64,000 bases of DNA from Sphagnum magellanicum (taxonomy: Eukaryota; Streptophyta; Sphagnopsida; Sphagnales; Sphagnaceae), in NCBI GenBank assembly GCA_021904315.1, contig CM038915.1:2480001-2544000 (forward strand), in the 5' to 3' direction. A model generated the notes under the pieces. The model had not been told where the DNA came from. It ran no database searches and saw nothing but the letters and a program-made list of their open reading frames with translations. Position 1 is the stretch's first letter; each line of letters starts with the position of its first letter. This document shows positions 4,701 through 63,246 of the stretch, piece by piece. The position numbers and the translations under genes were made by a program.

Positions 4701-4789
4701 TGATAAGAGTGTTATATGGTGTGATTCATATCAATTAGTTGCGAGAACTCTCAAAACTCCCTTCTTATTTTTTTGCTTTTTTTTTGGGG

Positions 4790-5135: not shown

Positions 5136-5214
5136 CCCTCAATGTACAAAATATTCATAAAAACATATAAGTCTCAAAATTGACTCACCTATATAGCTTC
5201 CAGGAAGACAACTG

Positions 5215-5830: not shown

Positions 5831-5949
5831 TTATTTCTATCCGAAACATTGATGTCCTATCATCCAATCTAGCATTGGTGTTGTGTTTGCTATTATGAAA
5901 ATCAGGAGACACTTCAAAAGCTGAGTTGAAACATGAGTAAAAACTCACA

Positions 5950-12700: not shown

Positions 12701-12769
12701 TATTCACTCCAAACATAAAAGCCTATAAGTCTTAACATTGAGTCACCAATATATAGGTTCCAAGAAGAC

Positions 12770-13260: not shown

Positions 13261-13264
13261 TGTG

Positions 13265-13732
13265 TTTTCATCTTTTGAGACAGGGCTTATTGGAAACAAG
13301 TTTGTAGTGAGGGATATTTCTGTGGTAAGCACTACGAACTGCCCGCCTTGCCGTATTAGGACTCGGTACAGACCGGCGATAGAGACGTTGTGGTGTTTTT
13401 TCTAGCTGCTTTGGCATAATTTCTATCAGCAACTGATCTGCAGATGATCAAAGAATATTGTGGGATTTTTCGATCCGAGTCAAGGAATTGTTGAGTGTAA
13501 TCAGCTGAGTGATTTGAGGTTTGAGATCTCGTCGGCCCTGTTCCAATCGCGTTGCTCTCAAATCCAAACTCTGCTCTGATCGATACAGCCAGGAAAGCCG
13601 AGAAGTTTGGAACCTGGGCGAGAAATTGTGGAGTGAGGGCAGAGTGATTGAAGTTTGAAATCCCGGCGTCGTCGGGTCACACCGCACTCAAATTCGAACT
13701 CAGCAGCTCTCGTACTGCTTGCAAAACTGAAA
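13265..13732 (+). promoter_or_regulatory. Putative promoter and leader of the SERAC1-like gene, with an internal duplication
   Basis: Local base composition rises towards even GC against the AT-rich surroundings, as is common for plant gene starts. A stretch at 13484-13590 ('aattgttgagtg...gtttgagatc') recurs, diverged, at 13622-13710 ('aattgtggagtg...gtttgaaatc'), offset about 138 bp. I see no convincing TATA box. Confidence 0.45.
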
Positions 13733-16700
13733 ATGGCATTAGAGGTCGGGAGCGTGGAGGTAAGTATATTTCCCTGCTAACTCGTGGTTTGATCTGAATC
13801 ACAAGAGGCTCGGTCTGGTCTATTTAGGCTTCAGAGCGTAAGCTAGTAAATCTCTGCATCAGACGACTAACCCAATGATTAGGGCGATTCTCCTGGAGTT
13901 ATTTTGTGCCCAGACCACAACTAGTTGCTTCTTATAGCTGGCTCCGGATAGTAGTCAACCCACTCACCTTTGAGAGACCATGCTGTGTAAACTACAGTAA
14001 TGTAACTTGGAAGCTCACAGTTGTGATCTGTAGTAATTTAACTCGGAAACTCACAGATGGAATCCCGATCGAGCCAAAATAGGCCACAAATTTTTCCTCC
14101 GTCTAGAGACTTTTCTACCACCAAACATAATAAGAGGTTTGCTTACGGAACAGCATGGTCGGGTTGGGAACGCAGCAACTGCATCCGGATCCGCACCTTG
14201 GGCCTCTGAAGCATGACCACAAACTGACGCTGATCTTCTTCTCCCTACACGAACTCTATTTTGGAAACAAAAACCCATGGATGAAGCGCGGCGATCCGGC
14301 TGTGATCTGGCCGCGAGACTGGCTGCCCAAAGAAGAGGAGGGACTGGGTGACAACATTCTGGTGCTGTACGTCCGGTGCTGGATTAGCGGAGTGAAAGAA
14401 TCCTGGTTGGATATGGGAAATAAATTGGTGCAACTTCTGGTCATGAAGTACGTATGCTCCCACCTCAATGTCATCCTGGGTTCTTTCTTAGGTGTGTTTG
14501 CGTCTTGAGGGCCTACTTGTGATCTCATCATGCTCGCTGTTTGCTTTCCGGTGTATGTTTTACTCTACACTCTCTTCAGGCAGGGTCATTTTACAGACTT
14601 GTTATCTTCTTCAGTAAATGATTTGAATAATAGCCAACCTCTTAGACTCAATTCCTGAAGTGTCCAAAAGTCCCAATCTAGTTCAAATAAGTGTCTTGGA
14701 CTTCACAACAAGAAGTCCTGAGATCTCAACAAGAGTGCAAGCCTAACTCATTGCTCAAATGTGACTTAAGGGTAAATTCAAGTTCTTTGGTGTATGTACC
14801 AATAATTTCCATAGTCCTTATGTTGTGAAAATATGTATTGGAGCACAAGACAAACCGTTTCATTTGAGAGCAAAATTATGTTCTGGATTTTGGAACAATT
14901 GGCCCCAATGTAACATTTGAATACAAGTCTAGTGCAAAGCCCCATTTACTCCTTATTGAAGGTAAAAAATATTGAAATGAACTAACACAGGGCAGAACAA
15001 TTACTTTTCAAGAAATCATGTAATCTTTTTAATCATGAAACAAAAGGCTTCATAGGCTAGGAGGTTGTTAGCATGAGAATGTTAGGTTTGTGATGAAGTT
15101 GAGCTTGGTACAAAATGTCAACACCCAAAATTAAAAAATTACCAATGCAAAGATATTGATGGTAATTTGCTATTGAACAAACTTGTAATTTACACCTATC
15201 ATGTTCGGATTGTGAGATATTGTAGCACAAGGTGGCAACTCAATCGCCCACAAACAATAGTGCTGGTTGGCCATGGCCTTGGAGGTCTTATGCTCAAAGG
15301 ATTCACAGTGAAAGTTGACATATTTTCAAAAGTTGATTTGGCCAATGGAGAATTACAAAAGGCCAGATGCAAAGCCTTCCAGCAAAATATCAAAGGCATT
15401 GTGTTTTATAGTGTGCCACATACAACATCTAAACAGGAATGTGTTAAGTATTGGGAGGCTTACACTAGCAACATTTCTCAGCTACGCTCTCATTTTCCCA
15501 AGCATTTTAGTCAAGAGATGGTACCGTTCAATGTAGGATTTGAGAAATCAATTGAACAACAACACATCAATCTCTTTGCATTTGTGGAAGGCCAAAAGGT
15601 ACAATTCTATGGCTGTCTATCTTCATTTGGAGGGTTTTCAAGTCTTGGTCAAAGTTTAGTCTCCTAATCATTGTGAAGAGTTGGAACTTAAAAGATATGA
15701 TTTTGTAATAAGGGTCAAGTCTATTTGCCTTCAAAGAAAACTTGCAAGTATTATTTGTATATTTAATTGAACATATTTTAGTGGCTATAATTTTAGCAAT
15801 TAGGTTGAACCCCAAACTTGGAATTTGCATTTTGAAATTAGTTTTGTATTATGAAGAGCTTGATTGTGGTGGGTGATATCTAGTTGCATGCAATTCAAGG
15901 TGATCTAAATGCAATGACTAATTATGAACTTGTGGTAATGAACCCACCCATGGCTATGTTATTAGTTTGATGTGGTACAATGGTGACATTAATTACATAA
16001 ATGTTTTGCATTGTCCCTCTTTTAAAATAGTTTGATGGGAGAAAAGTTGATTGAATTTGCAATTTGTTGAAGTCAAGGATGAATTGTTAACAAATTTTGT
16101 ACATTGCATGATTTGATCATATTTCTCATGATGTTCATGCCTTATGCAAAGACAAGTTGTCAATTGGCATTTGTAAAAGTTGGCTCGATTGTGTGTAGGT
16201 TTCAATATCACAATCTTCAACTTATAAGTTGACATGGAATAATGTGTGCAAGATTAAGGATGTTGACTGTATTCAAGTGTGTCAACCTCTTGATCAACAA
16301 CATGATTCATACAAGCGATTCTTGCAATTCATCCAAGAAGCCTTGGATGATGATGAATTATGTTTGAAACAGTTTAACACCAAGTTCAATTTGAAGGACT
16401 CTCAAGGGTTGGACGACCAATCTACATCTATTGGTTTATCGAATGTTGTTCAAAAGCCCCATTTGACTAGGTATGTAAGTTGGAGGGGCTACCTTAAATA
16501 TTGGTCAATTGAGTGGTCTTAGGAAATCTTTAGTTTTTGTAGGTGGGGTGTAGGTGTTAAGGATTGAGTGAGTAATCTAAAGTTAGTCTAATGCAATTAG
16601 GTTGAAGGTTCAAAAAGTTTGAAAAACTCCTTTCCAATCCAAGAGATTCCATACTTGGAGGAACTAAATAGGAGGTCCCACTGGGATAGTGAAGAGAATA

Positions 16701-18066
16701 TACAATTGTTACATCATCATAGACATTAACTACATTGTGACGTATGTTTTGTCATACCCAACAATGTTTATCATAACATTATGTGTAGCTATATATTGGG
16801 GTTTTGGACTCTAAAGGAATTTAGTTGGTCATTAAGAAATATAGCAAAGAAGAATTTTCTTTCTTAGTAATGTGTTAAAATTTGCCAAAGTTATGCATTA
16901 AACAATAACTTCATTTAGTATCTTGTGTAAATGGCCAAGGTGTACATTTTACATTTTTTTATATTTGGATTGGATGCAGAAAAGAAAAACAGAAAGTTAA
17001 AACAAGCACCAGAACCAATGAGATCGAAGGTGTGCCTAGCCAACAACAAAAGTTGGATGTGATGATAAGAACCATTGATGGTCACATCCAGTCTCCAGAG
17101 AAGCTCAAAGATTTAGCCCCAAAAGAGGTTTTGGGAGAAACCTCAATTGTGTGTGTTGGGGGAAAGGCCATGGAAGGGGATTCAGGGGAGTTCCTTTTCA
17201 TGGATGGGGGAGACATGGTCAAGGTTGTAGGAGTGGGTCTCGATTGGGCGAAGGTGGTGGTCACTAAAGAGTTTGTTGTGAATGTGATGCAAGAGGATGA
17301 AGGTGCGTGGACAAAATTGTGGTGTTTGGAACATTTTGTCCCAAGGATCATCACTATTCCTAACCCCAAGCAAGAGCTAGTGACACACCCAAATTCGGCA
17401 AAAATAGATGGGGTTGAGTTGGAAGCAAACCTTGGTTGTGTGTATGTGGAAGATGACAAGGAAGAAAATGCGCATGCATGTTTTCCACTAGTTTTTGAGT
17501 TGGCGAAACATATTGGATTAGGAAGCAAAAATGCCATGAAAATGAAAAAGGTTTCAAGGGCAAGATCCAGTGGGTCTACAAAAGGTGGAGAAATTTCAAG
17601 GGCAGAATCCAGTGGGTCTACACAAGGTGGAGAAGTTTCAGGGGCAGAATCCAGTGGGTCTACAAAAGGTGGGGAAGTTTCAAGGGCAGAATCCAGTGGG
17701 TCTACAAAAGGTGGGGAAGCTTCAAGGACAAAATCTAGTGGGTCAACACAAGAAATAAGGAAAAATGAAGATGACAAAGGATTTGAGGATCCATCTAGAG
17801 GCCCTCCTAACCCTTTGGACCCTTCCCTTTCTATTGGCCGAGAAGATGTAGAAGAAAAGACTCTCACGGTGAATGTTCACCCAAAAGCAAGACAAGTTAC
17901 TATTTCACAGAAGGGCCAAAAAATAACTCCTAGTATTTGTCCTACATTGGTATTTAAGTTTCAAAAGAAGGGAGAATGTAGAACGATAGATGTTGACGCA
18001 GAAACACAATGCAATTTTGGAAAGATGCAAATTGGGGCTACTAAAAATGGGTTAGGCTTTTATTAG
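13733..18066 (+). CDS. SERAC1-like alpha/beta-hydrolase protein, probable pseudoenzyme, with long C-terminal extension
   Basis: Five exons fit GT-AG rules and one frame: 13733-13759, 14176-14447, 15232-15598, 16199-16470 and 16980-18066 (674 aa to the first stop). Exon 1 and the start of exon 2 are the least certain. Exons 2-4 resemble plant SERAC1/DUF676-type lipase-esterase domains: 'WPRDWLPKE' near residues 57-65, 'IVLVGHGLGGLMLK' at 109-122, 'GIVFYSVPHTT' about 153-163 and 'IKDVDCIQVCQP' at 241-252. In this family the nucleophile elbow is GHSxGG and the last motif DxDH. Here Ser is replaced by Gly (115) and His by Cys (246), and the early HG oxyanion motif reads 'FFSLH'. Catalysis is therefore unlikely. 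Exon 5 adds an unrecognised region and a Ser/Gly-rich repeat at residues 504-571. The family is known for lipid or esterase roles; the role here is unknown. Confidence 0.65.
17551..17752 (+). repeat. In-frame 42-bp tandem repeat in the SERAC1-like gene
   Basis: Four full copies plus a partial fifth start at 17551, 17593, 17635, 17677 and 17719. Each 14-residue unit reads about SRAESSGSTKGGEV. Substitutions are few, many change the amino acid (K/Q, I/V/A, R/G), and the frame is preserved. It would encode a flexible, hydrophilic linker. Confidence 0.9.
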
Positions 18067-18876
18067 GACAATATCACAATTTCTTTGGATTGCATTGATG
18101 AGGAGGAGGATGCTGCAACAGTGACAAAAATACATGTTCAAAATGTGGAAAATGTGAAGAAGACAATTGTAGATACATCCACAACAATACATTATTCAAC
18201 ACATCAAGTTGGAGGAGAACTTGAATTGGATGCTACTCCTTTTCCTCATAACCTTCCTCTTCATGCTCGAGGAAAATATAATTATGCATGGACATGAGGT
18301 GATAATCTTGTGCATGGAAATACTCAAGAGATGTATTTTTCCCAATTAGATTGTTTTTTTGTGGATGACCACTCTATTCAAAGTGAATTGAGGTATAACT
18401 TTCGATATCCTCAAGAAGTTTTGCAAGACATTGCATTGGGTGATTCTTCAAAAATCAAAACAGAAAAAACATTTCGACCAACTATTGTGAGCAATTGGGT
18501 GAATTTGAACATGAATGATCAAAGCCCATACATTTTTAGTGTGGAACGACACATTGTTTCCAAAGAACACTTGAAGAGGTCATTGAAGTGTGAAGGGAAT
18601 CCTCCTTTTGTACAAAAACATTATGAAGTAAGTTTCAATGAAACAGGGCAACTAGATAGATCTATGATCACACAATCTCCCACCGACATACATTTGACCA
18701 TCAATGAAGGAAACGAGGTTATAGTCATCAAACAAGGTTATAAAGTAAACTTGAAGGTCAATCATGCAATGACACATATGGTTCACAAAGCGAAAGTGAT
18801 ACCTCTTCGTCATAGTGACACCAATCCCATGATTGTAGAAGGTGTCATGGAAATGTCAAGTTCAACACCTTATTGA
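18067..18876 (+). pseudogene. In-frame continuation of the SERAC1-like gene beyond stop codons
   Basis: After TAG at 18064-18066 the same frame stays open for 76 codons to TGA at 18295-18297, and then for a further 192 codons to TGA at 18874-18876. The translated text keeps ordinary protein-like composition throughout, for example 'LHARGKYNYAWT' before and 'GDNLVHGNTQEMYFSQ' after the second stop. The simplest reading is one long ancestral exon of about 630 codons with two nonsense mutations. Alternatives are introns that remove the stops, stop-codon readthrough, or assembly error. I do not recognise the domain. Confidence 0.6.
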
Positions 18877-21800
18877 CATTTGGAACTACTTAAAAGGCTA
18901 TTTTTGTATATCATCCATGGTAAGTACTAGATTCTTGGATCTTGTAATATTGTGCCTTTTTAAACATTTACATTCACAAATGTGTACATGACAAATGTTT
19001 TGTGAGTTATGTGGGTTATTGTTTCCACATACCTTTTCAAGGGATCTTAAATTATAAAATGAACATGTTGCCTTGTTGTTTGCTAGGTTGTAATTTTTTT
19101 AATGTTTTATATGTGCGTTTTCATTTGAAGGTCTTTTGAAGGTATGCTTGTACTCAACATGTACCCTTAGGCATTTGGCATTTGTCCTTGAAGGTTGCTA
19201 GGCCAATGTGTGCAGTCAAGGTTCTTGGTTTTTGACTGGTTTCAAAATTGTGGCATTTAAGAGAATGCTAGTAGTTATTGATTCTATTTGCAATCTATGT
19301 TGGGATGTGCAGGGGGTTGGAAGTGTTATGTGTGAATTATGGCACTCTTGGCAACAAGTGCCCCTGCCAAGGTAAGCAACACAACTTCTCTTGAAAATCT
19401 CCATGCTATCTGTGAAGCTCTAGAGCCTAGACCAAGCAAACTTGCAAGCATTGGCTCATGTACAAATATCAAGGTAGTTTACCTATTGGTGCAAAGGGGC
19501 ACCTACTTTCAAGTTCAGATGCTACCAAATAATTTTTATTTCAAGGTTTGTTAAAGTTTTAGACCTTGTGATCCATGCCAAAGGGTAAATTTCAACTTGC
19601 TGATAGAATACAAGTTTATGTTGCATGGTTATTTCCTAAATTGATTTATAGTGATTTGTCAAAAATCTAGCACCCTCAATGGACAAGAGATGCACAAAGA
19701 TGTTTGTCAGTGCCTCATAGCCTAAAACCTGGAAATTCATATGGAGTGTGCTTGAGGTATGGACATAAGGCAAGGGCATGGTTACAATTCATTGCATGCA
19801 GGTTATGCCAATAATCATTTGTCCAAATGAGTAAACAATTTGTAGTGGTATCATAAGAAGATTCATCATTGATAGGCATAATTTGACTTCTACAGAATTG
19901 TGATTCAACATTTTGTACAAATTAGTAGGTGCCAGATGGTGTCCAACAATAAACAAGCACTAAATAATAGTTTTTGGGTTGTTGGTTTGCAGGCATTGTT
20001 AAAGCCATTTTTGGCAAAGATCTACCAGCAGTAGAACTAGAAAGTGGTCAGTGACATATGACTGGTTGAGGAGGAGGCTTATGACACCTGCAAGAAATTC
20101 TGGACATTGGTGAGGTCATGTCACTCCTACCAATTTGAGAACTTGAGACAAATTAGTTGCAACAACCTCCTGTGCCCCTTCACTTCCTTCACCAATCTAT
20201 TTGCTTCACATGCTTGTGGCAACTTGGAATTCTGATCTTGCCATGTGATTGCAGCAGAGACATGATAACTCAGATTTTTCCTTCATTGAATCTCTGACAA
20301 TGTTCATCATGCTCATCTGCTCAATTTGCTACAACAACTTAGAACTTTTCATTCTTGCCACGCGATCAATCATTTGTAGCAGCAAGATGGATGTGACATT
20401 CTACAGATGGTAATTTCACATGTGTAAAACCCAAGAATGGGATTTGTAGTTTTTTTTCTTTTCTGGTTTTGGTTTTCATGAATTTTGTAGTATTGAGAAC
20501 ACATTAGTGAAATACTACTACTTCCAACAATTTTCTTGGGTTGCAATTATCAAGAATTTTTAGGTTTGATGGGGATTTGTAGAAATTACAATTAGAGAGG
20601 AACATTTCTTGGCAGAGTTTCTCTAGATATATATACATATGTCTTCAAATCAATGTTGTAAGAAAGCTGGTGGTTTCTTTTCAATGTCAAGTAAGTGCAA
20701 CTTTATTCAGTAGTATAAAATTCTCCTTGTACATATGCAAATTAAATGAAATCAAGCTTTTACTCTTGCACCCATGTTGCAACTTGAATATAAGGATTAA
20801 CTATGTTCTCTTGAGGCTTACCAACATCATGATTGGTTGAGTCCTTCTTTATTGCAGATTTTTGGATTGATTTTTTGTCTAAGAGTTTGTGCAGATTTTG
20901 TTATAATTATACATTCAACCCACTTCCAGGAGCTAATGAAGTTGTGGGTAGTTGTGGGCTGGCAGCTAGCCATTCAATGTTACTCACGCATGTTGAAGAT
21001 GACTTTCACTTCACAACTTCCCAAGGCAAATACCTTTGACCCATTTCTCCCTCCTCACTTCTTCATTTCAATTTTCATATCCTGCTAGGGCTCTTAAGAT
21101 TTGGTTGAAATCTCCATTTTATGTTCCAAAGCTACCCTTCAAAGTTTCTCTGTCCATGTATTTGCTTTCTCCAGCTTCAAATCTTTTTTACTAAGTACAC
21201 AAAGCCCACATTCTGGATCTATGAGCTTCTTTAGATAAATGTTTGCTTTGTTGCAGCACATCTTTGAAGGTTTTTGAAATTATTTTCAACTTTGGGTAGT
21301 GGGCCAGAGGTCACAACATCAGTTGGTTTCTGCATTTTATAGTGCTTTCAGAGGGCCTGCATTGGAACTATTTTGTGGACTAAGTGTGCATACATACTAA
21401 GTCTGGACAGTTGAATGCTTTGGGCTTACTGAAAGCTTTGGTTCCTGTATGATCCATTGCAAACTGGAAAAACAAATTACAGCTGTGGATTTTCTACAGT
21501 TCCACATGCATCAAATATAGTAGATTCTAGTCAGTGTCATGTTGTGATTACTGGAGGCAACCATGGTGTGCACTTTAGAGCCTCATATGAATCATCCCAT
21601 CCAGGACATTCATTGTTGTCTCTTTCTCTCCCAGGCTTGATGAGTTCCAGCACCCATAGAATGAATCCTAAAAACCGATTTTGATGTTGCAAATGGCTTT
21701 CTCAATTGTCTTGTTGCAAATTGCATGTGGCAGGGATAAGGAAGGCCACAACCATGGAACTGGGGGGGGCATGGCTGTGAATATTGGCAAACATCATTTG

Positions 21801-24035
21801 GCTTTCTTCTAGCTTCATTGGTATGCTCCCATTTACAAGATACTGATGGTGGTACTAAATGCTTGAGAAACACATAGATTCTTTTTTAACATTGTCTGAT
21901 GATAGTCTGAAGGCTTTTGGTGAGTGATTCAATGAGGAGGAGCTGAAATGTATCAAAAACTGGTTTTGTGTGCATTGAAAACTCTTGGGTCTTTAGTGGA
22001 ACAATACTGGTATTGAGTCAAGATACTGGTATTGAGTCAATATACTAGTATTGAGTCATTGCTGTGGTTGATGCAGTTGGATATGAAAACAAAGAACTCC
22101 ATGAGGGGTTTGGGATTGGTGCAAAGAAGCATGCTTCTAATAAAGAAATAGGAGATGAAAGCAGCAGGATATTCTTGACATGTTCATAAGTAAAAAACTA
22201 GTAGTAATACACATTTACAAGCTCTCTCTCTCCCTCAACCACAGAAAGAGTAGTTCTACTTTTTATCCAAGCTCCCATGTACACAACAAAACAATTTCAG
22301 ATGTTGAATCATGTAGCTTTCCTTTGTTGTGATGCATTTTGCACACTTAAAGGCTACTGTTGCTGTTTCCAACTTGGCCATAAGCCTATGACTATTAATT
22401 CATAGGAGCAACCATCCACTGTTTGACATTGTCCCAGGCCATGGGCCCCTAGTGGCTTGTTGTTTCCATGTAGCGTAATTGTTTGTCATTAGTCGCCTTT
22501 GGAACTCAATCAATTCTAGTGCAGCACCATTCAGCTACTTTCAAACCTTCTTCTCAAGTAGTTAGCAATTTTTACTTATTTTTTGCCAATTGCTTTGCCC
22601 ATGTTCCAAATCCCATTCTAAAGAATACCTAGACCTCTTCGAGATAAACCAACGTGCCTTACAAATCACCACTTTCCTAGAATACATGCCTATTCATCCC
22701 CGCATTGCAACATGTTTCCCATCCTAACATCAGCCCTATGATAGGACCTTTCTGTTGTAATAACATATTTTGTTATATTATATTTAGGTTTCTCAAGCTA
22801 TTTTTATAGTTTGTGATAAGTTCTTATACAATCATGGAAACTATGTGAAAATGGATATTGGGACAACTTACATATTGGTCATATTGGTTATAATGGTTTT
22901 TATGGTCATGCCAGGGCTGATTGGACTGGATGGGTTTTGTTGGGGCTTTTATTAAATGCATTTGCAATTTTCGGCAAATAATACAAGTTTAATTTCTATA
23001 TCAATTTGCATAATAAGTTTTGGTGTAGTTGTCAAGTTATATATCCTATCAATGTGATTTTTTAAAAATGTTTCATCTTAGTTTTTGTAGTGTTTCAGAT
23101 TTTCATAATATCTCAAATTATTATCCCATGTGTCATGCACTCCTATGTTGGCACTTACATCCATCATTGTCAACACACATCCAACACATCCAAACCACTC
23201 CCTTATAGATAGGGCCTAGGTCCCCCCAAACCAAATAGCAATATATGAAATATATTATGGAAATTCACCACAAATGAACATTTTGGTTCTAAAGTGAAAG
23301 GACCAATAAGTTGGGTGTAAATATGAACCCATTGTTAGTCATTTGGCTGCAATCCTTTCATTTCTTAGCCAAATGTGAATCATCTTGAAAAACAACTTAC
23401 TTCCTACTATCTAACTACAAAAATAAGCACCTAGGACTATGATGTGCATTGAGGACAAAACCTTTTTCCTAATAACACTTCTTCCAATGGTGGTATGAGA
23501 TATCTCATATGTCAACCTTTAGAACTCCAATCACAAATATACATAGTAGCAATTCTTGTAGGTTGCCCACACAACATACAATGAAGTTTTATAGGGACAA
23601 CCACCAAGGATGAATCAATTTGGCAATTCACATCATGAAAATGACATGGCACACAATTACACATGTGGTCCTTCCATGTCTAATTATGTCGACCTTCCAA
23701 CAACACCACACCAAAAGGTAGCACCTTTCACACATGCAAAATGACATGTTTCATTTTACATCCAACATGTTGTTATTGGTTATAAATATGCTAATAGAAA
23801 TCATGTTGTTTGCAACCATTCCCTGTGTGACTAAATGTTGCTTACAAGTACAAATGGTTGCTTATGCGACTACTTTTCATATTTGGATGGATTTTGGTCT
23901 TTCAATTAGGTTGCAACTATGACCTATTTCACCTTTCCAATAGGTTGATTTTTCATGATGTCTTTGTATTTTTTTACAAAATCGTATATACATTTAATTG
24001 CACATGCAACCAAGATAATCACATTATAGTTGCAT
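18877..24035. other. Intergenic DNA without a recognisable gene
   Basis: Short open frames of 60-90 codons occur (for example 19339-19554 and 21457-21684), but none has a family motif, splice partners or codon bias that I can defend. The inverted partner of the 5950-6480 repeat lies at 22555-23060. A triplicate 'tactggtattgagtca' motif sits at 22010-22060. Confidence 0.5.
22555..23060 (-). repeat. Inverted partner of the 5950-6480 repeat
   Basis: Reverse-complement match to 5950-6480 across about 500 bp, from 'aatttttacttattttttgcc' on one side to 'gttgtcaagttatatatcct' on the other. Both ends break sharply. Confidence 0.85.
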
Positions 24036-26659: not shown

Positions 26660-29300
26660 TTATCCATAATGAATAAATTATTATATTTATTACTTATTAA
26701 ATAAAATAAACCATTATTTTTAAAACATATTTTTTACATTTTATATTTTATATTCTTACAATAAAAGAAATTAATTGCTCTAATTAATGTTACATTAGTT
26801 TAAAATCATTGTAATTATTTCAGATAAGAATTAATTATAGTATAAGCATAATAATTTTTTAATTGAACATAGTTATTCACAATTTTTAATTTATAACTTT
26901 AAATCTGAATTAAATTTTTTGAAAGATTATAATATAGTTAAAATAATTATTGTAATGATTTTAATTTTAGGAATTATTATAAAGTAATTTAATTTTTTAT
27001 TTTTAAGAATTATGTAAGTACTTATCTATGATAAAAAAATTTACAATAATAAATGTAATTATATAGTATTGAATGTAACTATTTTAATTATTTTTTTTGA
27101 AAATTGTGTACGAAATTTTCTTAGTAACAATTGTTCATTCATTATTTACAATTTGAAAAAAAATTAAAATACTTATTTATTAAAAAAATTAAATTTACAT
27201 TAATTTTGTTATCTATAATTCAACTAGATATATAAAAATAGTAAAATGTTTTAGTTTTTTATTTATCTTTGAGTTATGTATTAATGACTTGTGAAAATCT
27301 AGATAATTAGTTAGTTAAATATTAATAAATTATTATTTATTTGAATAGTTAATAATGAATACTTAATATTTGTAATGTATAATTTATATTTTAAATATAT
27401 ATTAAATTTAATCATTATTAATTAAATGGTTATCTAATTATGTAATACTTGAACTATTCATAAATCTAAAAACTAAGAACAAAAGGCATGAAGAAAATTT
27501 TGGAATTGCCATTTATTTTGTGAAGAAATTGCAACTTTAAAATTTATCCCATATTGTTTATTTTCCATTTTTATTTTGAACAATATATAAACAAGGGGTG
27601 TGGTCATCAAATTCCACAATAAAAAAGTTATGCACATGGGATGAACGAATCAAAAAGTTTAACCCAAAATAAAAAAATAAATTATGCATAATTTTAAACT
27701 ATTAACTTCCCCAACTTACTTATCTACTTAATTAGGTAGGTACATAGTATGACCTACCCACCTAGGTCAACCTATGTACCTACCTACTTAAATACCTACT
27801 TATATGAGTAGGTATTTAACCTAGGAAAGTAGACCTACCTACCTACCTTTCTACCTAAGAAGGTAGGTAGGTAGGTATGTAGCCTAGGTTTGTAGGCACC
27901 TATTTATGTACGTACCTAAACACCTACCAACCTAATATGAATATTTTGTATTAAATTCATCTTAAGGTGCCACATTGGGCATTTTGTCCTCATGTGTAGT
28001 TCGTCAACATTCTTATCTCACATGGACAATACTTCTTCCTCCTTCCTTTTAGTATCTTTTAGCGAGTTTTGGTGAGTTTTGACAAGAAAGTTATGCAAAT
28101 ATGTGGGGACATTATGGGTCTAGGATCATTGGAATTTTTTTAAGGCCCTTTAATGAAGTGTTAGGTTTAACTATTGGTATCCTTTGGTGATATAAGGCTT
28201 CTTTTTACGGAAGATTATGTCCAATTTGTTGTTTTAGGGAGTTGGGTTTTATGACACACTCCCAAATTCCTTAATAGGTTCAAATGTGAGTCCAAGGTGA
28301 ACACAACGAAAGAATGAGGAGTTGGGATATGCTCTTTAATTCGCAGCATTTTGCGAGTAGAAGGGCATGTTGAAGCTTCGGGATAGGGATCATGAAGAGT
28401 GACAAGTAAATCAATTACTCACACAGACCTGCACAAACCAAACAACAAGTTGGTTAATGCATAGTTGAAGCATTTTCGTTGCATGGATGAACCACAAACA
28501 AACATAGATTCATAAGACTCACCACGGCTTGAACTTGGGGGAAGCCACCACCTTCTCCCTTATAGTATTTTCTGTGCTTAATCATGGGGCTAGCACCCAA
28601 ATGTCATTTTGTCCCGAGACTCCCAAGTTGGAATCCCAAAATTCCCCATATTAAAACTCTCGTGATTTTGGAAGCCCATAACTTTATGTGCAGACCTTCG
28701 ATTGAAATGAAGTTTAAAGCAAAGTTTAACTTTCGCCAAGAGCTTTCCAACAGTATGTGACATGACACCCGCAAATAAAGGTTTATCCCAACTTTTAATG
28801 GTTGGGAATCAAACTGCCATTTTGACTCTCGACCTTTCTTTTGGCCATAACTTATGTTTTAAATACCCAAGTGAGTCATATGAGCCTAGTTTAAACATCT
28901 ACATTTCAAAAGCTTTCCAATGGTATAAGGAATTCTTCGATCCAATGAGTTTTGACCCCTACAATTGCCTTTTAAAAATTTGAAAGTCCATCCAAACTCT
29001 AACTCCCAAAGTGGGAGTTCACTTATGAGTGTGGGGGTTCATTCTTTCACATTCTCTTACACTCCTGAGAGCATGAAATGTGATTCTTGGGTTTCATTCT
29101 TGGCCCGCACCTTCACAAACCTTTGCTTTGGTCGTGAGCCCAAGGTTAGGGTTATGACACTGTGGTGGTTTTGTTTTTATGCGTTAAGTTTCGTATTTTT
29201 TATAAACCCGTTTTGGAAGAATATGTTTCTTAGGTTGATGGGGGCCCACACTTGTTTCAATCACGTTTATGTGTAATGCAAGATGACTTTCTTCTTACGG
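26660..29300. other. Very AT-rich, then repeat-like intergenic DNA without a recognisable gene
   Basis: 26660-27550 is extremely AT-rich with no coding potential. 27940-29300 is less AT-rich and has the patchy look of a decayed transposon, but I found no terminal repeats and no conserved protein motif. Open frames at 28762-28983 and 28965-29276 are unassigned. Confidence 0.45.
27714..27935. repeat. CCTA/TAGG tetranucleotide tract with a strong hairpin
   Basis: The tract switches strand in the middle. 27833-27852 (ACCT repeats ending CTTTCT) pairs with 27858-27876 (AGAAGG then TAGG repeats), giving a 19-bp stem with one bulged base and a five-base loop. Confidence 0.8.
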
Positions 29301-30755: not shown

Positions 30756-30780
30756 GGGGTGGTTTCACAAGGAGCATTTT
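30756..30780 (-). other. Degenerate counterpart of the H1 3' hairpin, after H1 copy A
   Basis: Read on the minus strand, the sequence about 31-55 nt after the H1-A stop (AAAATG, CTCCTTGTGAAA, CCACCC) aligns almost without gaps with the hairpin of copy C (TAAATG, GTGTTTCTGAACA, CCACCC). Several left-arm changes and a one-base deletion in the right arm abolish the stem. Confidence 0.6.
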
Positions 30781-30811: not shown

Positions 30812-32453
30812 TCACTTCTTTGCTTTTTTTGCTGGAGATGCAGCTGTTTTACTTGCTTTACCAGGCTTCTTTGCATTCACAGTCTTGGGCTTGGCTGTTT
30901 TGAGTGATTTTGGTGACTTCTTCACCACTGGTACTTTCTTTGGAGCAGTCTTTCTCACAGCAGCAGGTTTTCTTACAGGAGCAGTCTTCTCTTCATCTTT
31001 CTTGGTTGCAGCAGGCACCTTACTCTTAAAAGCAGCTTTTGGAGCAATAGCTGGCTTCTTCTTGAGAGATTTTGGAGCTTTCACTGGCTTAGCAGCTGCG
31101 GTTGTCTTCTTCACCCGACCTGCAGGCTTTTTGACCACTTTGGTAGGCTTGGGGGCTTTGGTCTGCTCCCCTTCCTTCACATCCTTGATCAATGCCACAG
31201 GCTTGGTTGCCTTAGTTGGTTTCTTGAGTTCATCAGAGAGCTTGAAGGAGTTCTTCACCTTGAAGACCTTTCCCTGCTTCGTCAAGTTCCGGAGTTGGAT
31301 GGACAAGGTCTTCTTGAAGTTTGGGGGCAAACCAGTCTTGTATGTGTCCTCAAGATACTTGGCAATCGCATATTGGCTTGACCCTGTCCTCTCCTTCAAG
31401 CTTCCAATCGCCTCCTTTACCATCTGGAGCAAACAACCCCAACATGAACCCTCTCCAACCAGTTATGCCCATTCATGGGTAGCCTATCATGGGTACCATC
31501 TAGCATGCAGTATGCATCTAGCCAAGCTCAAACAGCATGAAAGGCAGCAAAGAAGCACTACCAGCAACAAGATTGGCTTGATACGGAGAGTCACCTGCAC
31601 ACTTACTATAGACAAGCCTTAGCATTTCATTGTCAATTTTAGGAACCCATGTTGCAATGCAATTTTTTTCCCCACAAACTCACTCTTGCAAATTGGCAAA
31701 CCTTTTCTACATCAGAGATGAGAAAGCATGACTGCCAAGAACAACAGGATGGAAATGCACAACTTTGGCACAGTGAGGAAGCTCAAGCACCTAAAGCAGA
31801 CCCCATAGAAATAAAGTAAAAAAGGAAAAATGAAGAAATGGAAAGCCACTGATTGTGGACATATTCTTCACATGCAAGACAAAGATGTGGAAACACTCAA
31901 TTTGCCATGTCAAAACTGCTGCAAAGGCACATAGGAAAGAGAGACAGCCCTAGTGCAACAAAACAAACTCCAAGAAAACAAAATCATTCTGTTGAAGCAT
32001 AGTCCTCTTGAAGCAAATCATATTCAGAGGACAACAGAGGGCCGCACAATTGGGGACCCATCAACCCTTCAGTTCCAGAGTTCCACTTGTGCACACATGT
32101 CTTGACAAAACTGCTCATGGCAGAAAAAATGAGAACCAGATTGTGATGTGCAAATTAAGCTTGAGAAGGAAAAGCTTGAAAAATCTATGGAATTTAGAAA
32201 GTGGAGAGGGTTGAAGGGAGGGAGAGAGGGAGAGAAACATACATACCAGGAGATAAGGTGGGTGAGTGATGGAGACTTTGTCAGTTTTGGCAACCTTGGG
32301 TTTCTTGGGTTTCTTCTCCTTGGGAGCTTTCACCTTCTTCTCCTTGGCAACTTTCTCAGGTTTGTCCTCCGGCTTCACCTCTTCAACCACTGTCTCGGAG
32401 GCCACTACCACCTCCTCAACTACCAGTACGGTATCAGTTGTTGAAGTAGCCAT
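30812..32453 (-). CDS. Linker histone H1, copy A (272 aa, two exons)
   Basis: Exon 1 is 32453-32247 (69 codons) and exon 2 is 31423-30812, with an 823-bp intron (GTATGT...CAG) between codons, exactly before 'MVKEAIG'. The N-terminus is acidic and then Lys-rich ('KEKKVKAPKEKKPKKPK'). The globular winged-helix domain spans residues 64-131 ('HPPYLL', 'GSSQYAIAKYLE', 'LPPNFKKTLSIQLRNLTKQG'). The tail is rich in Lys, Ala and Pro with an SPK site. H1 binds linker DNA at the nucleosome dyad and compacts chromatin. The start is the first ATG in frame with the conserved N-terminal block. The protein is closest to copy C (shared 'KNSFKLSDELKKP') and has the shortest tail of the three. It stands alone, 18 kb from the other two and on the opposite strand. 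Confidence 0.96.
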
Positions 32454-50292: not shown

Positions 50293-51521
50293 ATGGCTGC
50301 AGCAACTGATGATGTGCCTGACGTTGCTGCTGCTGTTACTGCTGTGGTAGTTGAAGAGCGAGTGACCACGGTTTTGGCTGCTTCAGGAACGGAGTCTGAG
50401 AAGGAGACCGTGGAAGTGGAGAGTACTAGTATCATTCAGGTGGAAAAAAAAATTTCCAAGGAGAAGAAGAGAGTGAATCCTCCCAGGGAGAAGAAGGCCA
50501 AGTCGTCGTTGCCTAACCAGGAGGACCGGGAGAAGAAGCAGCTGAAGAAGCTGGCTCCCAAGGAGAAGAAGCCTAAGAAGATGCCTAAAGCTGCCAATGG
50601 CCCTGCTGCAGCACACCCATCTTACCTCCTGGTACTGTCACTTTGCAGACCTCTCTCTCTCTCTCTCTCTGGCTACTACCCTTCGACGGCTGCTTGTTGA
50701 ATTTGTAGCTTTTGGCAGCAGTGCTGGAATGTTTCTTATTGGTTTGTGCTTGCGGTGGGGTGGGGTTTTCCATTTGGATTTGTTTGCTTCCTTCTTGGCA
50801 GATGGTGAAGGAGGCGATTGGGAGCTTGAAGGAGCGCACGGGATCAAGCCAATATGCAATTGCCAAGTATCTGGAACAAGTGTACAAGGCCGGCTTGCCT
50901 CCCAACTTCAAGAAGATTTTGTCCAACCAGCTGCGCAACATGACGAAGCAGGGCAAGGTGTACAAGATCAAAAACTCCTTTAAGCTACAGAATGATGTCG
51001 AATCTAAGGCTCCCAACAAGCCCGTTGTTGTAGCAGCGACGGACAAGTCCAGGGTCAAGGATATTAAAGCGCCCTTGAAGCCCACAAAAGTCGCAGCGAA
51101 AAAACCACCACCTGCCACCCGCTTGAAGAAGACCAAGTCTGCAGCCAAAGCCCCAAGGGCCCCTCCCAAGGCACCCAAGTTGTCGAAAGCTGCTGTGAAG
51201 CCACCACCACCACGCAAGAAGGCACCAGCTGTAGCTACAAGAACGACGAAGAAAGCCGAAGAAGAGTTCAAGGCTGCTGCAGCTCCTGCCAATAACAAGG
51301 CTGCAGCATCTCACGTAAAAAAAGCTGCTGCTGCTCCAGTGAGGAAGAAGTCTTCTTCTACAGCTAAGAAAGTGGTAACCCCTGGCAAGAAACTTGTCTC
51401 CAAATCAGTGAAGACAGCAGCAAAACCCAAGGTCAGTACTAGAGCTGCTGCTGCAACAGCGAGTAGAACAAGCAGAACAGGTGTTGCGCCTCCTCCTCCA
51501 TCGAAGAAAGCCAGGAAGTAA
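50293..51521 (+). CDS. Linker histone H1, copy B (352 aa, two exons)
   Basis: Exon 1 is 50293-50631 (113 codons) and exon 2 is 50802-51521. The 170-bp intron has GTACTG...CAG borders and a CT-repeat at 50648-50672. The intron sits at the same codon boundary as in copies A and C, after 'HPSYLL' and before 'MVKEAIG'. The N-terminal domain is longer than in the others, with an acidic Ala/Val-rich start and three Lys blocks. The globular domain covers residues 108-175. The tail, from about 176, is Ala/Lys/Pro-rich with several poly-Pro and poly-Ala runs ('KPPPPRKKAP'). The protein would bind linker DNA in the nucleus. I start at the ATG in 'atcATGGCTGCAGC'; the frame is open a little further upstream but has no other ATG. 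B lies 3.6 kb before copy C in the same orientation and is the most diverged just after the globular domain. Confidence 0.96.
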
Positions 51522-51552
51522 GCCCTGGCACCACAACTATCCCTTGCATCAC

Positions 51553-51570
51553 TGGTGTTTCTGAACACCA
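51553..51570 (+). promoter_or_regulatory. 3' hairpin of H1-B mRNA, histone stem-loop-like
   Basis: TGGTGTT-TCTG-AACACCA forms a 7-bp stem with a 4-nt loop, starting 32 nt after the stop codon, and is followed by CCACCA. The 20-nt string TGGTGTTTCTGAACACCACC is identical after copy C although the surrounding 3' sequences differ. Confidence 0.6.
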
Positions 51571-51599
51571 CCACCACTTCAAGGAAAAATGTTTTTCTT

Positions 51600-55137: not shown

Positions 55138-56392
55138 ATGGCTGGAAGTGATGTTGGGCCTGCAGTAGTTGAGGGGGAGGATGGAGGAGATGAGGCTGTT
55201 TTGGCAGTTTCTGGTGTGGAGAAGGTGGTTGCAGTGGAGAATAGTAGCAAGGGTGGGGAGTCTAAAGCTGTTTCAGTGAAGGAGAAGAAAGTGAAGATCC
55301 CTAAGGAGAAGAAGCCCAAGAGCGTCAAGGGTGCTCATGCCTCTTCCACTGCTGCTCACCCTTCTTACCTTCTGGTAACATGTCGCTCCTGTGGGATTCT
55401 GTAGAATGCAAGTCATCATGGTTCTTTGTTTGGTTTTCTCTATGATGCATACCCATCTTTCTGTTGCAGAGAATGCGCAGATGTTTTTTGAAAAAAAACA
55501 TGAACCCTAGTTGGACAAGCATTGGTGGAGGCTTTTGATTCAGGAGACTGTTTTTGTGGTTTTCTTTCCTTGGGTTGTTTAGAGATGCATGCTTGCGACG
55601 GGGATTTTTCTTTTTCTCCTTTTGGGTTTTGTTTTGGGTTGTTGGCTGGTATCTGATAATGTTCTGATCGTTGTTTCCTTGGGGTTTCTTGCTGCCTGGC
55701 AGATGGTGAAGGAGGCCATTGGTACGTTGAAGGAGCGAACAGGGTCAAGCCAGTATGCAATTGCAAAGTATCTAGAGGACATGTACAAGACTGGGTTGCC
55801 TCCCAACTTCAAGAAGATTTTGTCCATCCAGCTGCGCAACATGACGAAGCAGGGCAAGGTCTACAAGGTCAAGAACTCCTTCAAGCTTTCGGATGAGCTC
55901 AAGAAGCCAGTCAAGGCGCCCAAGGCCGCGATGGCCATCAAGGACATCAGCAAGGAGATCAAAGCCCACAAGCCTACCAAAGTGGCGAAAAAAGCTTCGA
56001 GTCGCGTGAAGAGCAAGACAGCCAACGGTGCTCTATCCAAAGCTGTCAAGCTCGGAGGGGGTGCAGTTGTTGCCAAGCCGACCAAAGTTCCCAAGGCACC
56101 GAAATCAGTGAAACCTGTTGCCGTGAAGCCGCCACGCAAGGCACCTGTTGCAGCGAGCAAGTCTAAAGATGAAGAGAAGGTGACAGCTCCTTCTGCAGCA
56201 AGAAAGCCTGCAGCGTCTCTGACAAACAAACCCACTGCTGTGAAGAAGACTGCATCGAAAAAGAAAGTTGGTACCCCGAGGAAGGCCCCCAAATCCGTCA
56301 AGTCTGCAAAGTCCAAATCCTCCAAGTCTGCTGTAATACCTGGCAAAATAAGCAAGACGGTTGCATCTCCAGCCAAGAGAGCCAAGAAGTGA
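55138..56392 (+). CDS. Linker histone H1, copy C (308 aa, two exons)
   Basis: Exon 1 is 55138-55374 (79 codons) and exon 2 is 55703-56392, with a 328-bp intron (GTAACA...CAG) at the position shared by all three H1 genes. The N-terminus is acidic, then 'KEKKVKIPKEKKPK', nearly the same as copy A. The globular domain runs from residue 74 to 141 ('HPSYLL', 'ERTGSSQYAIAKYLE', 'QLRNMTKQGKVYKV'). The tail is Lys/Ala/Pro-rich with a TPRK site, a kind of motif phosphorylated by cyclin-dependent kinases in H1 proteins. The start ATG follows an in-frame stop-free leader; it is the first ATG that gives the conserved H1 N-terminus. The gene converges on the Argonaute gene downstream, 1.6 kb from its stop codon. 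Role: linker DNA binding and chromatin compaction in the nucleus. Confidence 0.96.
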
Positions 56393-56430
56393 GGGGACTC
56401 TCTGGAGACCCACAGTGCAAAAGCCCTAAA

Positions 56431-56448
56431 TGGTGTTTCTGAACACCA
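56431..56448 (+). promoter_or_regulatory. 3' hairpin of H1-C mRNA, histone stem-loop-like
   Basis: TGGTGTT-TCTG-AACACCA, starting 39 nt after the stop, with 5' flank CTAAA and 3' flank CCCA. Counting a 6-bp stem and a 4-nt loop, it has the same 16-nt geometry and ACCCA 3' flank as the animal replication-dependent histone stem-loop, though the loop differs (UCUG, not UUUC). A purine-rich 'gaagaaac' follows after about 10 nt. Confidence 0.6.
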
Positions 56449-56499
56449 CCCATCTCTGAAGAAACGTTTTCATGTCCTCTCTCACATGTGTAAAGAAGC

Positions 56500-58007: not shown

Positions 58008-61000
58008 TCAACAATAGAACATAACCTTCTTCACATTTTCCTTCAAAGGAGGAAGTGGCCGCACCGATCCACTCACTGCAACCCGGTTTGTCCGAGTGGA
58101 CATGCTAGTGCCTGTGCTTCTGCCAGCAGCAGGCACTGGTCCACTGGTCAATGATCCACTGTCTGATGCCTCTGGCTCCATGTAGAACCTTGCTCGGAAG
58201 GCTGCCAGATGTGCATAGTAAGCAGGTGGAACTGCACAAACATAAAGAAAGGAGTATTGAGCTCAAAAGTATTGTATAGCCTCTTTGTTCTAAACAAAAC
58301 TCACAGCATTTTGAGCTCAAAAGTAAACAACAAGAATCCCAGGCTCCACAGATTGGGAGGTGCTCACCAATAGAGACTGATCGAGTGCACCTCGCATACC
58401 TGTTACAAACAAGAAAGTATTATTAGAACCCATCAGTATATCTACACTGGAATTTGATAACCATACAGCTTGAGTACTTTTTAATTAGGGGACAAACAAA
58501 CATACGTGTAGCAGAGGTTGTTTGTCAAGGACTGCAAACTGTCTGCTGAGAACTTGTTCTCATCCCACAGCACATGATAGTGTGCAGGTCGGCTGGTCCC
58601 CTGCTCACAAACCCAACAAACACCAGAGTCACAACTACATATCATTGCATTGCATCAACCTCATCAGACAACTAGGGAGCCCACTCCTCTACCTTGGCAA
58701 GAAGACAAGGAACACAGAAGAAAAGACCCTTCTCATAAGAATCAAAAACTCACATCGGAATAACCTGAATAGCAATTGAGAAATGAACTGTTTCTAAGTT
58801 GAAATAAACTTTCAGAATGAACAGCATGTGATCTTGACAGCAAACTGAGAGAAGAGCAGAAATAATCACAAAGACAACTTGAAAGAGCATAGAATAAAAA
58901 TGCGGTGTAACCCAAGACCAAACAACAATATCTCTCAAAAAGAGCTCATGAGACCCAACCTGAATCCCTGCATGGCTGCAAAGATAGAAATCAAATTCCG
59001 TAGGGTGGCAGATTTTTGAGTCCACGACCGTGCCTGGACAGTACCAAACAAGTCCAAAACATGAGAGGATTGCTAGACAAAAACACAGTATTGGCAGAAC
59101 CCACGTGGCTTCAGGTTGGTATCTTTTCACCAACTGCTCCAAATAAGTGTTCAGTCGTATATGTATCCCACCAACAACATAGTTACCAAAAACTATGGAG
59201 GCAAGTAGCTAGGCTCTATGTACTTAGCAATCAAACTATGAGATGTTCTTGTAAAATCACAAAAGTGTGACATATTCTGGACAGATCCATTGCATATCTT
59301 TCTAGCAAGAAAAGACAACAGAGCCTGGACAGACTCCAATCTTGCAACCTAGCACAACCTGGGATGACAGTTCAATCAAGAAACAAAATGCTGCTAGAGA
59401 GCTAGCTACCAGGCATGATAATCGCATGGCACATGAAAAGGGACTAACCTGGGAGAATGTTCCCACTACGATCCACACTGCGGTTGTCATTGTGATTGCT
59501 GGCAAAGAGGCGTGTATGGTGACGTTTCTGTACCACCACAAATGTGACAGGTGGCTGGTAATCTGGCTCAAGCGATGCACAAGCCTTTCGGATGGCATCA
59601 AGCTCGTAAAGGAGGACCTGATAGAACTGCCCTTCACTTACACCATCCCTGCAATCCATGGACATACTGATAATGAGCTATTTTGAAACACTAAACTTGG
59701 CAGAAGAATGCTGATTTTCACTGGTAGGTGTACATAGAAGTACACCAGCTCCAAATACAGCAGAGGATTCAGGTTGCACCTTCTTGAGCTTCTTAGACAC
59801 AAGCCCTAAGTATACATTACTAATATAAACTAGACACCAGTCAATCACTACAAAAACTACATGACTAAGCACACCCACAAGCACACAAAAATTCTGGAGA
59901 ATATGATCCAATCAGACGAACCTGTAAAAGATGATGCGCAGAGGCTTTTGACCTGTTGCTTTCCGAAAAGATATCAAGAGTTCCCTATCACGAACAGGGA
60001 CATAATTACTACAGTTAAAAAAAGCTGCAAGAATTTTTTCTCCAAAAAAGAAAATGGTGAACCTGGTTTCCACCTAATCATTTAAGTGAGAAAACAAATG
60101 CTCAAAGTGAGGGTGTGTACTTGATCATGCCTCCTGTGCACTGGCCTCTTTGGGGATCTACCCAAGTTTTGAAGAGGTCTTGAATCAACTCCTGCCGGTG
60201 TGCTTGAGCACATACTAGGCCTGCATATTTGGTGACTTCGGGCCAGTCCTGTGAAGCTACCACCTAATTCCAAAACAGACTACAAGAAATCAACCACAGC
60301 GCTGGCACAGTGGTCAAGCAACACATGAGCTAAATCCAAGTCTTGGATGCAATTGACTTGTGAGGCAAAGCAGGAAGCTAAAAATCATGTCAGATAGAAA
60401 GAATCTGGTTAAGAGGGAACTCACTGCAGCAATGGAAGGGCTAGAATCCTCTCCAGGATGTGGATGTGTGACATCTGCACCAAATATGATGGTGGGAATG
60501 TCACTTACTAATGGGATTCTTCGTGTAAGTGCATCAACCAAGACAGTGTTCCGACCCCCAACCTGTCCTCCCCCAGCAAACCACAAATCATCCAAATGCT
60601 CATGAGTGACAAACCATTTGGGTGGAACCCCAAAAGGGGCCAGTGCACAGGCATTTATCCTCTCAACAGGACAAAGCAATGACAGTGTGCTCTTACAAGA
60701 TGTGTACCTTAACATTGATCTTCAGAGCAACATTGGCCATATACTGTTTGCTCATCTTATAAACATGCTTGGTCAGGCAGCATTGTGACACCACTCCAAG
60801 CACAGTCTCGCAATGCTTCTTCAAGTCACCTACATCCACAACTACAATGTAAGACAGCAGCAGTCTCCAGTAAATGTGAGCAGAATGTGGAGATTCTGTA
60901 ACCTAAATATCACATACAAACTGTCACCTTACATACCATAAAGTGATCCATTGCTGTCAGGCAGAATGGCCACAAGAAGATCTAAGCCTTTGTCCTTTGT

Positions 61001-63246
61001 CCTTTTCTTAACATCTTCACAGAGGTGTGACAGAGCACGCTCAGCATGCTCTGGGCGCACACTCTGAACTGGGACAATGGGTTCACCCCGAAAAGCCTGC
61101 AGTGTACAGCAACATGCCAGCTTTAGAATGTTTGATGAAAGGAGCAGCAATACAAACCCAATGCAGAAACTGAGAACAGAAAATTCAGCACAATACCATT
61201 CCAGATGTTTGGCACATGTGAGCCAACTCAGCGCAAAATGCAGAAGCAACATTCTCTTGCACAGATCTTGAGAAATTGAGACAAGCCCAGTGGTTGACAA
61301 CTCCACCATTCACCATTTTCTGCAAATTAGAGAAGATGGTCATTACCAGTACAAGGCAAGGCAGCACCATTTTAGAACAATGGCTTCAGAACATCTTTCC
61401 ATCCAGCAACTCCACTCCAACCAGCACAGTTCAGTAGTTGTCAAGACCCAAATAAAGCAAATTTGGCTACCTTATTCATCATATTCCACTGTCCAACTTG
61501 AGGAAGACATTCTTTTTCTCTCCCGGTATCATGATACTTGAGCTACAAAAGGCACCCAACTCGCAGTTAGAATCAGTGACAACAGGTTGGACCTAGCAAA
61601 TAGGTACTCATCAGAGAGACAGGCATGTAGTGAGAAGAGAGAAACCCGAGGAGCTGGTAGGATCCGAGCCTCGACTTGGGCAAGCTGAGCACTGATGTGA
61701 ATCCCAAACTCCTGTGCATATGGATCCTCATGGTATGCATTATGATTTACAGTCTGCAACCAACCACCCAAAAAAGCAACACAAATGCTCTCCAGCTTCA
61801 GACATCTCTTGCTGTGTGCTTACACAGAAGCATAGCTATTGCACATGAAAGGACTCTGGCAAGTCAGCAGCACAAAGTAATGAAGTGTTTGCTGATTGCT
61901 CAAGACAACCAGTACAGCCATAGGTAGGAGTCTAGCTGAAACACACCTGCAAAATATCATTCTCACGTTCACGAGGTCGTTGGCATGTGACTTTCAGGAG
62001 AGCTGTAATCTGCCGCTCATTCAAGCGTTTTGAGTATCGCTGACCTTCCACAATTTTGCACACCTCCATAGGAAGATAGTTGGGTCGCTGGTCATTGCCA
62101 ACTTGGAGGCATGGCAGGAATGGGTGACGAATGACATATCCATATGTCTCTTTGAAGTATTCAGTGACCGACTTCATCGTGCCAATCTCATCAACAGGAA
62201 ATCTGCACAAGCAACTCAATTTAAACCTACTGACTGCTACCATCCATAAAAATGAATGACTATTTTGATCACTTCCAGAGTGCATGTAATTTTGCCAATC
62301 AAACAGATGAGCAATACAACATTACAGTTGCATGCAAGTCAAGATGCTGCCATACACAAGTTCATTTGTGGCCTTAGTTGTGAGCCCTGAAACTCGGTAC
62401 TTCCGTCGCATACTTCCACGGTGTGTGACCTCCACCTTCACACCACGCAAGGCTTTTTTGATCTGCAAAATTAAGTCACCCCCTTTAGTGCAGCACAGAA
62501 TTTGGTTCCCATCTCTACAGACTGCTTGATCATGAAACAGACAAACAGTAATATAAAAAAGTTAGCTACAGAGATGTTTGATCAGAGGCTAACACAGGTT
62601 TAGGGTTTAGGGTTTAGGCTAACCCTATTTTGAACTCATCCCAATTCGGAATGACCTAAGTGCTAACCAGTTTCCCACTTGTATGGAAGATTGAGGACAG
62701 ACCTTAATTCGATCCGCATCAGACAAGCCCCTTGACATATCCCTGTTCAGAAGATCTCGAATGAACTCCATCACAGTTTTTGGCTCAATGAAGGCAGTTG
62801 ATGACATGTCTGATGGAACACACAACCCATGAGATGCAGAAACTGCACTTCATACTTTGAAAGTCCCACAACATTCAGGGCAGCATAATCCCAAATACCA
62901 CTTGCCATCACAGGATACAATAATGTTCACCAAACTTTCTGAACAAGATATCATTGGAGGTGACGATGGAAAGTAGCCACCCCAAATCTTACTGCTTCCA
63001 TGACTTCCCAACAGCCAATGACAATATGGGTTTGCAGATTAAAATGGCTCATCTGCAAATGAAATGACAAAGACCCATTACAAGGTCCTCTTGATAGTTG
63101 CTCCTCTCTTACCAATGTTTAGGGACAGGCCCATCTGAGTTGGGCGTATACTTTGATAGAAGCCTCGCCAGCTCTCCAGTCCATCTCCCAGTGACTGTCG
63201 GGTACCAAGGTTTGGTGAGTAGAAAGAGCGGCCAACAGGTGAGTAT
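58008..63246 (-). CDS. AGO1: Argonaute protein, AGO1/AGO10 clade, partial (C-terminal 718 aa, 17 exons)
   Basis: Exons from the 5' side: 63246-63113, 62809-62703, 62462-62356, 62202-61947, 61753-61646, 61542-61471, 61319-61197, 61096-60937, 60829-60708, 60562-60425, 60263-60121, 59984-59922, 59648-59449, 59033-58960, 58600-58506, 58399-58368, 58231-58008. All junctions are GT-AG and the joined frame is open. The protein begins inside the linker 1 region ('[14 protein letters not shown]'), then PAZ ('[12 protein letters not shown]', '[15 protein letters not shown]'), MID (from about residue 290) and PIWI. The slicer tetrad is intact: D426 (FGADVTH), E467 (AHRQEL), D512 (FYRDGVSEG) and a His in 'RPAHYHVLW' (609 or 611). 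It ends in the usual plant '[12 protein letters not shown]'. AGO1-type proteins load miRNA or siRNA and cleave or repress target RNA. The N domain and any miR168-type site lie beyond the right edge. AGO10 cannot be excluded without the N-terminus. Confidence 0.97.
62597..62618. repeat. Telomere-like repeat patch (TTTAGGG)n in an AGO1 intron
   Basis: Three consecutive TTTAGG(G) units inside the intron between exons 62809-62703 and 62462-62356. Read in the gene's sense it is AAACCCTAAACCC, the telo-box motif, followed by an 'aaccctattt' fragment in the opposite sense on the plus strand. Confidence 0.9.

Follow-up and report, generated by a model that had tools for sequence, protein, structure and literature searches.

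Does a land plant end its histone messages in the stem-loop known from animals and green algae? The question is raised by a 64,000-nucleotide (nt) stretch of the Sphagnum magellanicum genome (contig CM038915.1, or C9 among the assembly's 31 contigs, positions 2,480,001–2,544,000 of the forward strand; hereafter the window), in which a short hairpin follows the stop codon of a linker histone H1 gene. According to excerpts of two papers, land or higher plants lack histone 3′ hairpins and the stem-loop-binding protein SLBP, and processing of this type is believed to occur solely in animals and green algae (PMC6827988, PMC5429643). An initial annotation of the window had offered two readings, a retained algal-type element and an independent 3′ regulatory hairpin. 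The results support the first, and we give a probability of about 0.92 to the reading that the element belongs to the animal and green-algal kind of histone 3′ stem-loop, working in a land plant as part of a stem-loop/SLBP system. Its computed basis is the hairpin itself, its recurrence across histone families, covariation in its stem, a purine block downstream and an SLBP domain encoded in the genome.

A histone-type hairpin follows two H1 genes in the window

The window contains three H1 genes, here called copies A, B and C. Copy C is an intron-bearing linker histone gene on the plus strand, with coding exon 1 at 55138–55374 and exon 2, which carries the linker-histone domain (PF00538, E = 1.2e-13), at 55703–56392; the splice sites (55374/55703) were read from the sequence and the joined frame is open. 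After its stop codon (TGA, 56390–56392) come 38 nt, and at the 39th begins TGGTGTT-TCTG-AACACCA (56431–56448, plus strand), flanked by CTAAA on the 5′ side and CCCA on the 3′ side. The hairpin is thus confirmed exactly as initially annotated, and it is identified by sequence, fold, Rfam and a covariance model described below. An ACC flank (56448–56450, plus strand), whose A also serves as the partner in the outer pair, follows the stem, and a purine block, GAAGAAA (56458–56464, plus strand), lies in the position of the animal histone downstream element, the U7 site, and may have the same function.

In the predicted fold, a 7-bp stem closes a 4-nt loop (−7.5 kcal/mol, z = −2.1). Folding energy alone is modest evidence, because 8 of 200 shuffled sequences fold as stably. 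Sequence specificity is the stronger evidence: the two strands of the window hold two hairpins in which a perfect 6-bp GG..CC stem closes a 4-nt loop and ACC comes next, both of them on the sense strand directly past an H1 stop, and none of 30 dinucleotide-shuffled windows contains one. When the window was scanned against 4,227 Rfam families, RF00032, the histone 3′ stem-loop, matched at both hairpin sites, once at 29.4 bits (E = 2.5e-4) and once at 26.1 bits (E = 4.3e-3), each under its curated cut-off, and all other matches had E values of 0.06 or worse.

Copy B sits 4.9 kb upstream of copy C, with exon 2 at 50802–51521 (plus strand; domain match and splice reading). Its stem-loop (51553–51570, plus strand), 31 nt past the stop (TAA, 51519–51521), is identical to that of copy C and is followed by ACCAC rather than ACCCA and by a purine block, AAGGAAAAA, at 51581–51589 (plus strand). 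The two copies share a 20-base run, TGGTGTTTCTGAACACCACC, inside otherwise unrelated 3′ untranslated regions (UTRs): all 18 hairpin bases agree, whereas the flanks agree at chance level (10/30 on the 5′ side, 11/30 on the 3′ side). These comparisons bear on whether the hairpin is a chance palindrome or a recent duplication that travelled with copies B and C. The two copies are indeed paralogs, and the window holds 64 plain hairpins with a 6-bp stem and a 4-nt loop, against about 30 expected; yet hairpin identity within chance-level flanks, together with the return of the element in other histone families whose UTRs are not homologous, led us to reject both ideas, to which we assign a negligible probability.

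Copy A lies on the minus strand (exon 2 at 30812–31423; domain match and splice reading) and has lost the stem. At its counterpart site (30761–30776, minus strand), TGCTCC-TTGT-GAAACC retains 3 of 6 pairs and an ACCCC flank.

The element recurs across the histone genes of the genome

Four LFY genes and four RALF matches in the 439-Mb genome fit a streptophyte and land plant; of LFY, its presence alone was used, as the residue regarded as diagnostic did not read as expected for mosses. Across this genome we inspected 56 histone genes at their 3′ ends, found by PF00538, PF00125, an H4 query and an H2A query, whose counts are lower bounds. A hairpin was counted where a 6-bp GG..CC stem paired perfectly around a 4- or 5-nt loop and NCC came next, both the GG..CC base and the CC flank being part of the selection. 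Hairpins were present in 34 of the 56 genes, 16–58 nt past the stop: H4 8/8, intronless H3 6/7, intron-bearing H3.3-like genes 2/2, H2B 7/11, H1 6/9, H2A 5/11 (SQEF-tailed genes 0/3) and H2A.Z-like genes 0/8, where the labels H2A.Z, H2A.X and H3.3 are our own assignments from tail and core residues. One gene counted as hairpin-less, L215, showed no stop in the piece fetched. Outside the 56 stand L191 (CENH3-like, last exon unread), L216 (weak, with an internal stop), the NF-Y-like loci L169–L171 and L192–L194, the non-histone L196, and a group of 12 weaker PF00538 matches (L148–L159), which were judged non-H1 by their C-terminal ends without a family check.

The pattern TGGTGTN6ACACCACC has 30 matches genome-wide, 26 of which coincide with histone hairpins (H4 7, H3 6, H2B 6, H1 4, H2A 3); the remaining four represent three sites, at which the sixth pair is A-A/T-T, C-C or G-T. 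The backwards control pattern has 16 matches. A pattern scan of IMG/VR gave at least 120 stretches, which are prokaryotic-virus DNA and have no bearing on the histone question.

The initial annotation had named a lack of pairing potential at this place in homologous genes of related species as a refutation. Within this genome, six of the nine H1 genes carry the hairpin and three (L140, which is copy A, L141 and L142) do not; these and the H2B genes L181–L183 and L185 are the two weak spots of the recurrence. In a tree of the nine H1 genes, a weakly supported branch (69/82) has the three hairpin-less genes together on the same side. The sub-group formed by window positions 30812–31423, L141 and L142 possibly comprises polyadenylated replacement-type H1 genes, and copy A, with its two relatives, seems to form a sub-lineage that has dropped out of the stem-loop system. 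Separately, the H2A.Z-like genes L172, L173 and L174 have another inverted repeat about 70–105 nt past the stop, GAGGCAG ... CTGCCTC, and agree in its AAGGAAGTACTTTCCT-like interior.

Stem pairs change together between histone families

The 5′ arms of the hairpins are GGTGTT, GGTGTA (in H3) and GGGTTC (in H3.3). Loops measure 4 nt in 29 of 34 cases and 5 nt in the other 5, and their sequences vary (TTTT, CTTG, TCTG, TTCA, TTTC and others). On the 3′ side, the stem is followed by A in 33 of 34 hairpins and by CC in all 34, as the selection requires. Across 30 aligned hairpins, three of the seven pairs change on both sides, in 12 cells. The covariation score is 0.206 compared to 0.037 in shuffles, and the signal is abolished when the partners are slid against each other. 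The changes of pair type between families are not a product of choosing intact stems alone.

A covariance model (R2) was trained on 22 hairpins of H3, H4 and H2B genes, H1 and H2A sequences being kept out. In the window, it matches at copy B (51544–51594, E = 5.6e-8) and copy C (56422–56472, E = 2.2e-6), the next match having an E value of 0.19. Over 44 non-training loci, R2 finds six H1, five H2A and the remaining H2B hairpins, as well as one weak match distant from the stop (L183, E = 0.034); at E ≤ 1 it has no match at L140, L141, L142 or L162. A second model, R1, contains the window hairpins, so its window scores are not evidence. The covariance search and the check for compensatory stem changes that the initial annotation had suggested, applied within this genome, show that the element recurs after H1, H2A, H2B, H3 and H4 genes and that its stem changes are compensatory. 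The annotation had doubted SLBP binding on account of the loop UCUG, which differs from UUUC; UCUG falls within the range of loops used in this genome.

These results also address the alternative that the hairpin is an independent 3′ element particular to H1, unrelated to SLBP and merely similar in form. That idea could draw on the UCUG loop and GGUGUU stem, which deviate from the animal consensus, and on RF00032 scores below the cut-off; it is at odds with the appearance of the same element, with compensatory changes, after H2A, H2B, H3 and H4 genes and with the presence of an SLBP gene. We rejected it because the other histone families contradict it, and consider it very improbable.

The genome encodes a candidate SLBP

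A genome search for the RNA-binding domain of SLBP, another step proposed in the initial annotation, was positive. PF15247 matches two adjoining exons on the minus strand of contig C2 (16119151–16119050 and 16118799–16118692; E = 3.5e-9 and 8.6e-13) and none of 14 prokaryotic controls; the scores in the two exons, 56.9 and 45.3 bits, both exceed the cut-off of 27 bits. The joined domain aligns with SLBP structures from Drosophila (4tv0/4tux, 4.7e-20) and human (4l8r, 1e-17). As in the known proteins (PF15247; PDB 4tv0, 4tux, 4tuw, 4l8r), it is an SLBP-type RNA-binding domain, here spread over two exons, in which the RQKQIDYGKNT and S(K/R)R(S/A)(W/F)D regions of Drosophila SLBP align with the moss sequence and the aligned Arg is retained. 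The regulatory TPNK motif, in contrast, is TPDI in the moss, in a comparison that covers the RNA-binding domain. By homology, the genome appears to encode an SLBP, which would be expected to bind the hairpin.

A purine block downstream suggests how the messages may end

At +12 to +16 from the end of the stem, 133 of 170 letters (78%) are purines, in pyrimidine-rich surroundings. No 5-letter window reached that level in 20,000 within-row permutations, which ignore kinship within families, the families being mutually independent. The purine share is 0.90 in H1, 0.86 in H2B, 0.85 in H4, 0.77 in H3, 0.68 in H2A and 0.20 in H3.3. In animals, the histone downstream element that binds U7 lies at about the same distance.

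These features suggest a pathway by analogy with animals. The H1 pre-mRNA, like those of the other replication-type histones of this genome, would carry the hairpin 16–58 nt past the stop; the nuclear-encoded SLBP would bind it; and the RNA would be cut a few nt beyond the ACC flank, with the purine block 12–16 nt downstream as the guide. The resulting histone mRNA would end in the hairpin and could be produced and degraded in time with DNA replication. We infer SLBP binding, cleavage past ACC, the lack of a poly(A) tail, a U7-like guide and control in S phase from these likenesses.

Several observations weigh against the stem-loop reading. Twenty-two of the 56 histone genes, including 3/9 H1 and 4/11 H2B genes, have no hairpin. 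The rows of the covariation alignment were picked for intact stems, which inflates its share of paired cells (99.5%). Both window hairpins fall below the curated RF00032 cut-off of 34 bits, and a genome-wide search with this family, in which 75 of 107,891 candidates were scored, gave 15 matches, the best of 30.8 bits; none exceeded the cut-off and none had a histone open reading frame just upstream, although these rows omitted the window's own two hairpins and are uninformative either way. U7 RNA was not found in searches that are lossy: the best RF00066 match among 65 scored of 126,862 candidates reached 25.2 bits (cut-off 34; E = 0.48), and a guide-plus-Sm-site pattern gave 57 matches, against 9 for a control pattern, none of which made a convincing U7 gene when all 57 were checked for a 3′ stem and for the consensus plant small nuclear RNA (snRNA) promoter box (best case three mismatches). 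Finally, the H3.3-like genes L167 and L168, on contigs C5 and C8, have GGGTTC-TTTT-GAACCC shortly past AATAAA and no purine block, which may mean that H3.3 messages are polyadenylated yet still carry the hairpin. A scan for AATAAA and TGTAA was uninformative except for the AATAAA just before the H3.3 hairpins, and hairpin-bearing histone messages may still have a poly(A) tail.

In an alternative reading, the hairpin binds SLBP and regulates the translation, export or decay of histone mRNAs that are polyadenylated downstream, algal-type cleavage having been lost. The H3.3 arrangement and the failure to detect U7 would fit, as would the polyadenylation of plant histone mRNAs described in an excerpt of PMC6827988. 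However, the U7 searches were lossy, and if cleavage were absent there would be no evident cause for the survival of the purine block at the expected place in H1, H2A, H2B, H3 and H4 (68–90% purine). We regard this alternative as unlikely.

The moss element resembles, and departs from, known systems

The histone-type stem-loop of the moss shares much with the metazoan system of RF00032, SLBP, histone downstream element and U7 small nuclear ribonucleoprotein: it lies less than 60 nt from the stop, has a 6-bp stem with a GG..CC base, usually a 4-nt loop and an ACC flank, and is accompanied by a downstream purine block and an SLBP gene. It differs in that its stems are GGTGTN or GGGTTC rather than of the GGCUCU type, its loop is often not UUUC and sometimes 5 nt long, its RF00032 scores are under the cut-off, no U7 was found by the lossy searches, and its H1, H2A and H2B genes have introns. 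The animal consensus combines a GGYYYY 5′ arm with a UUUC-type loop; none of the three moss arms fits it, and UUUC occurs in 2 of 34 hairpins.

The histone 3′ palindromes of Chlamydomonas and Volvox, known to this comparison by description rather than by stem sequence, are alike in belonging to the green lineage. Replication histone messages of Chlamydomonas are reported as non-polyadenylated in an excerpt of PMC8226298, and Volvox and Chlamydomonas appear as exceptions among plants in one of PMC6827988. Green algal histone genes differ in being arranged in divergent pairs, which those of Marchantia and Physcomitrium are not, according to the former excerpt. Among open-access papers, judged by titles and abstract openings, we found no report of a moss SLBP or histone stem-loop.

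Other features of the window

Exons of an Argonaute gene lie at 60314–62285 on the minus strand (PAZ, E = 2.4e-19; Piwi, E = 2.4e-5). Tandem 42-nt units at 17509–17760 fall within a 344-codon open frame (17032–18066) that has no Pfam match. At 27725–27891, TAGGTAGG-like units form strong inverted repeats that are like microRNA precursors in their fold alone and score far under the Rfam cut-offs. Repeats of 70–290 nt, 80–94% alike, are dispersed in direct and inverted orientation over 2087–6142 and 12340–23012 and are perhaps the remains of mobile elements.

Implications for histone supply in land plants

In its fullest form, our proposal is that replication histone mRNAs, those of H1 included, are made without poly(A) from intron-bearing and intronless genes alike, by means of SLBP and of a U7-like plant guide acting on the purine block, and that this system came ashore with the green-algal ancestor and disappeared afterward, toward the flowering plants; we lean slightly in favor of this extended version. 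Hairpins and an SLBP in a moss-like genome, as a set that looks complete, would mean that the system was lost at some point within the evolution of land plants. They offer a plant in which removal of SLBP could probe how histone supply is coupled to DNA replication, and they imply that RNA data obtained by poly(A) selection would underestimate histone mRNA abundance in plants of this kind.
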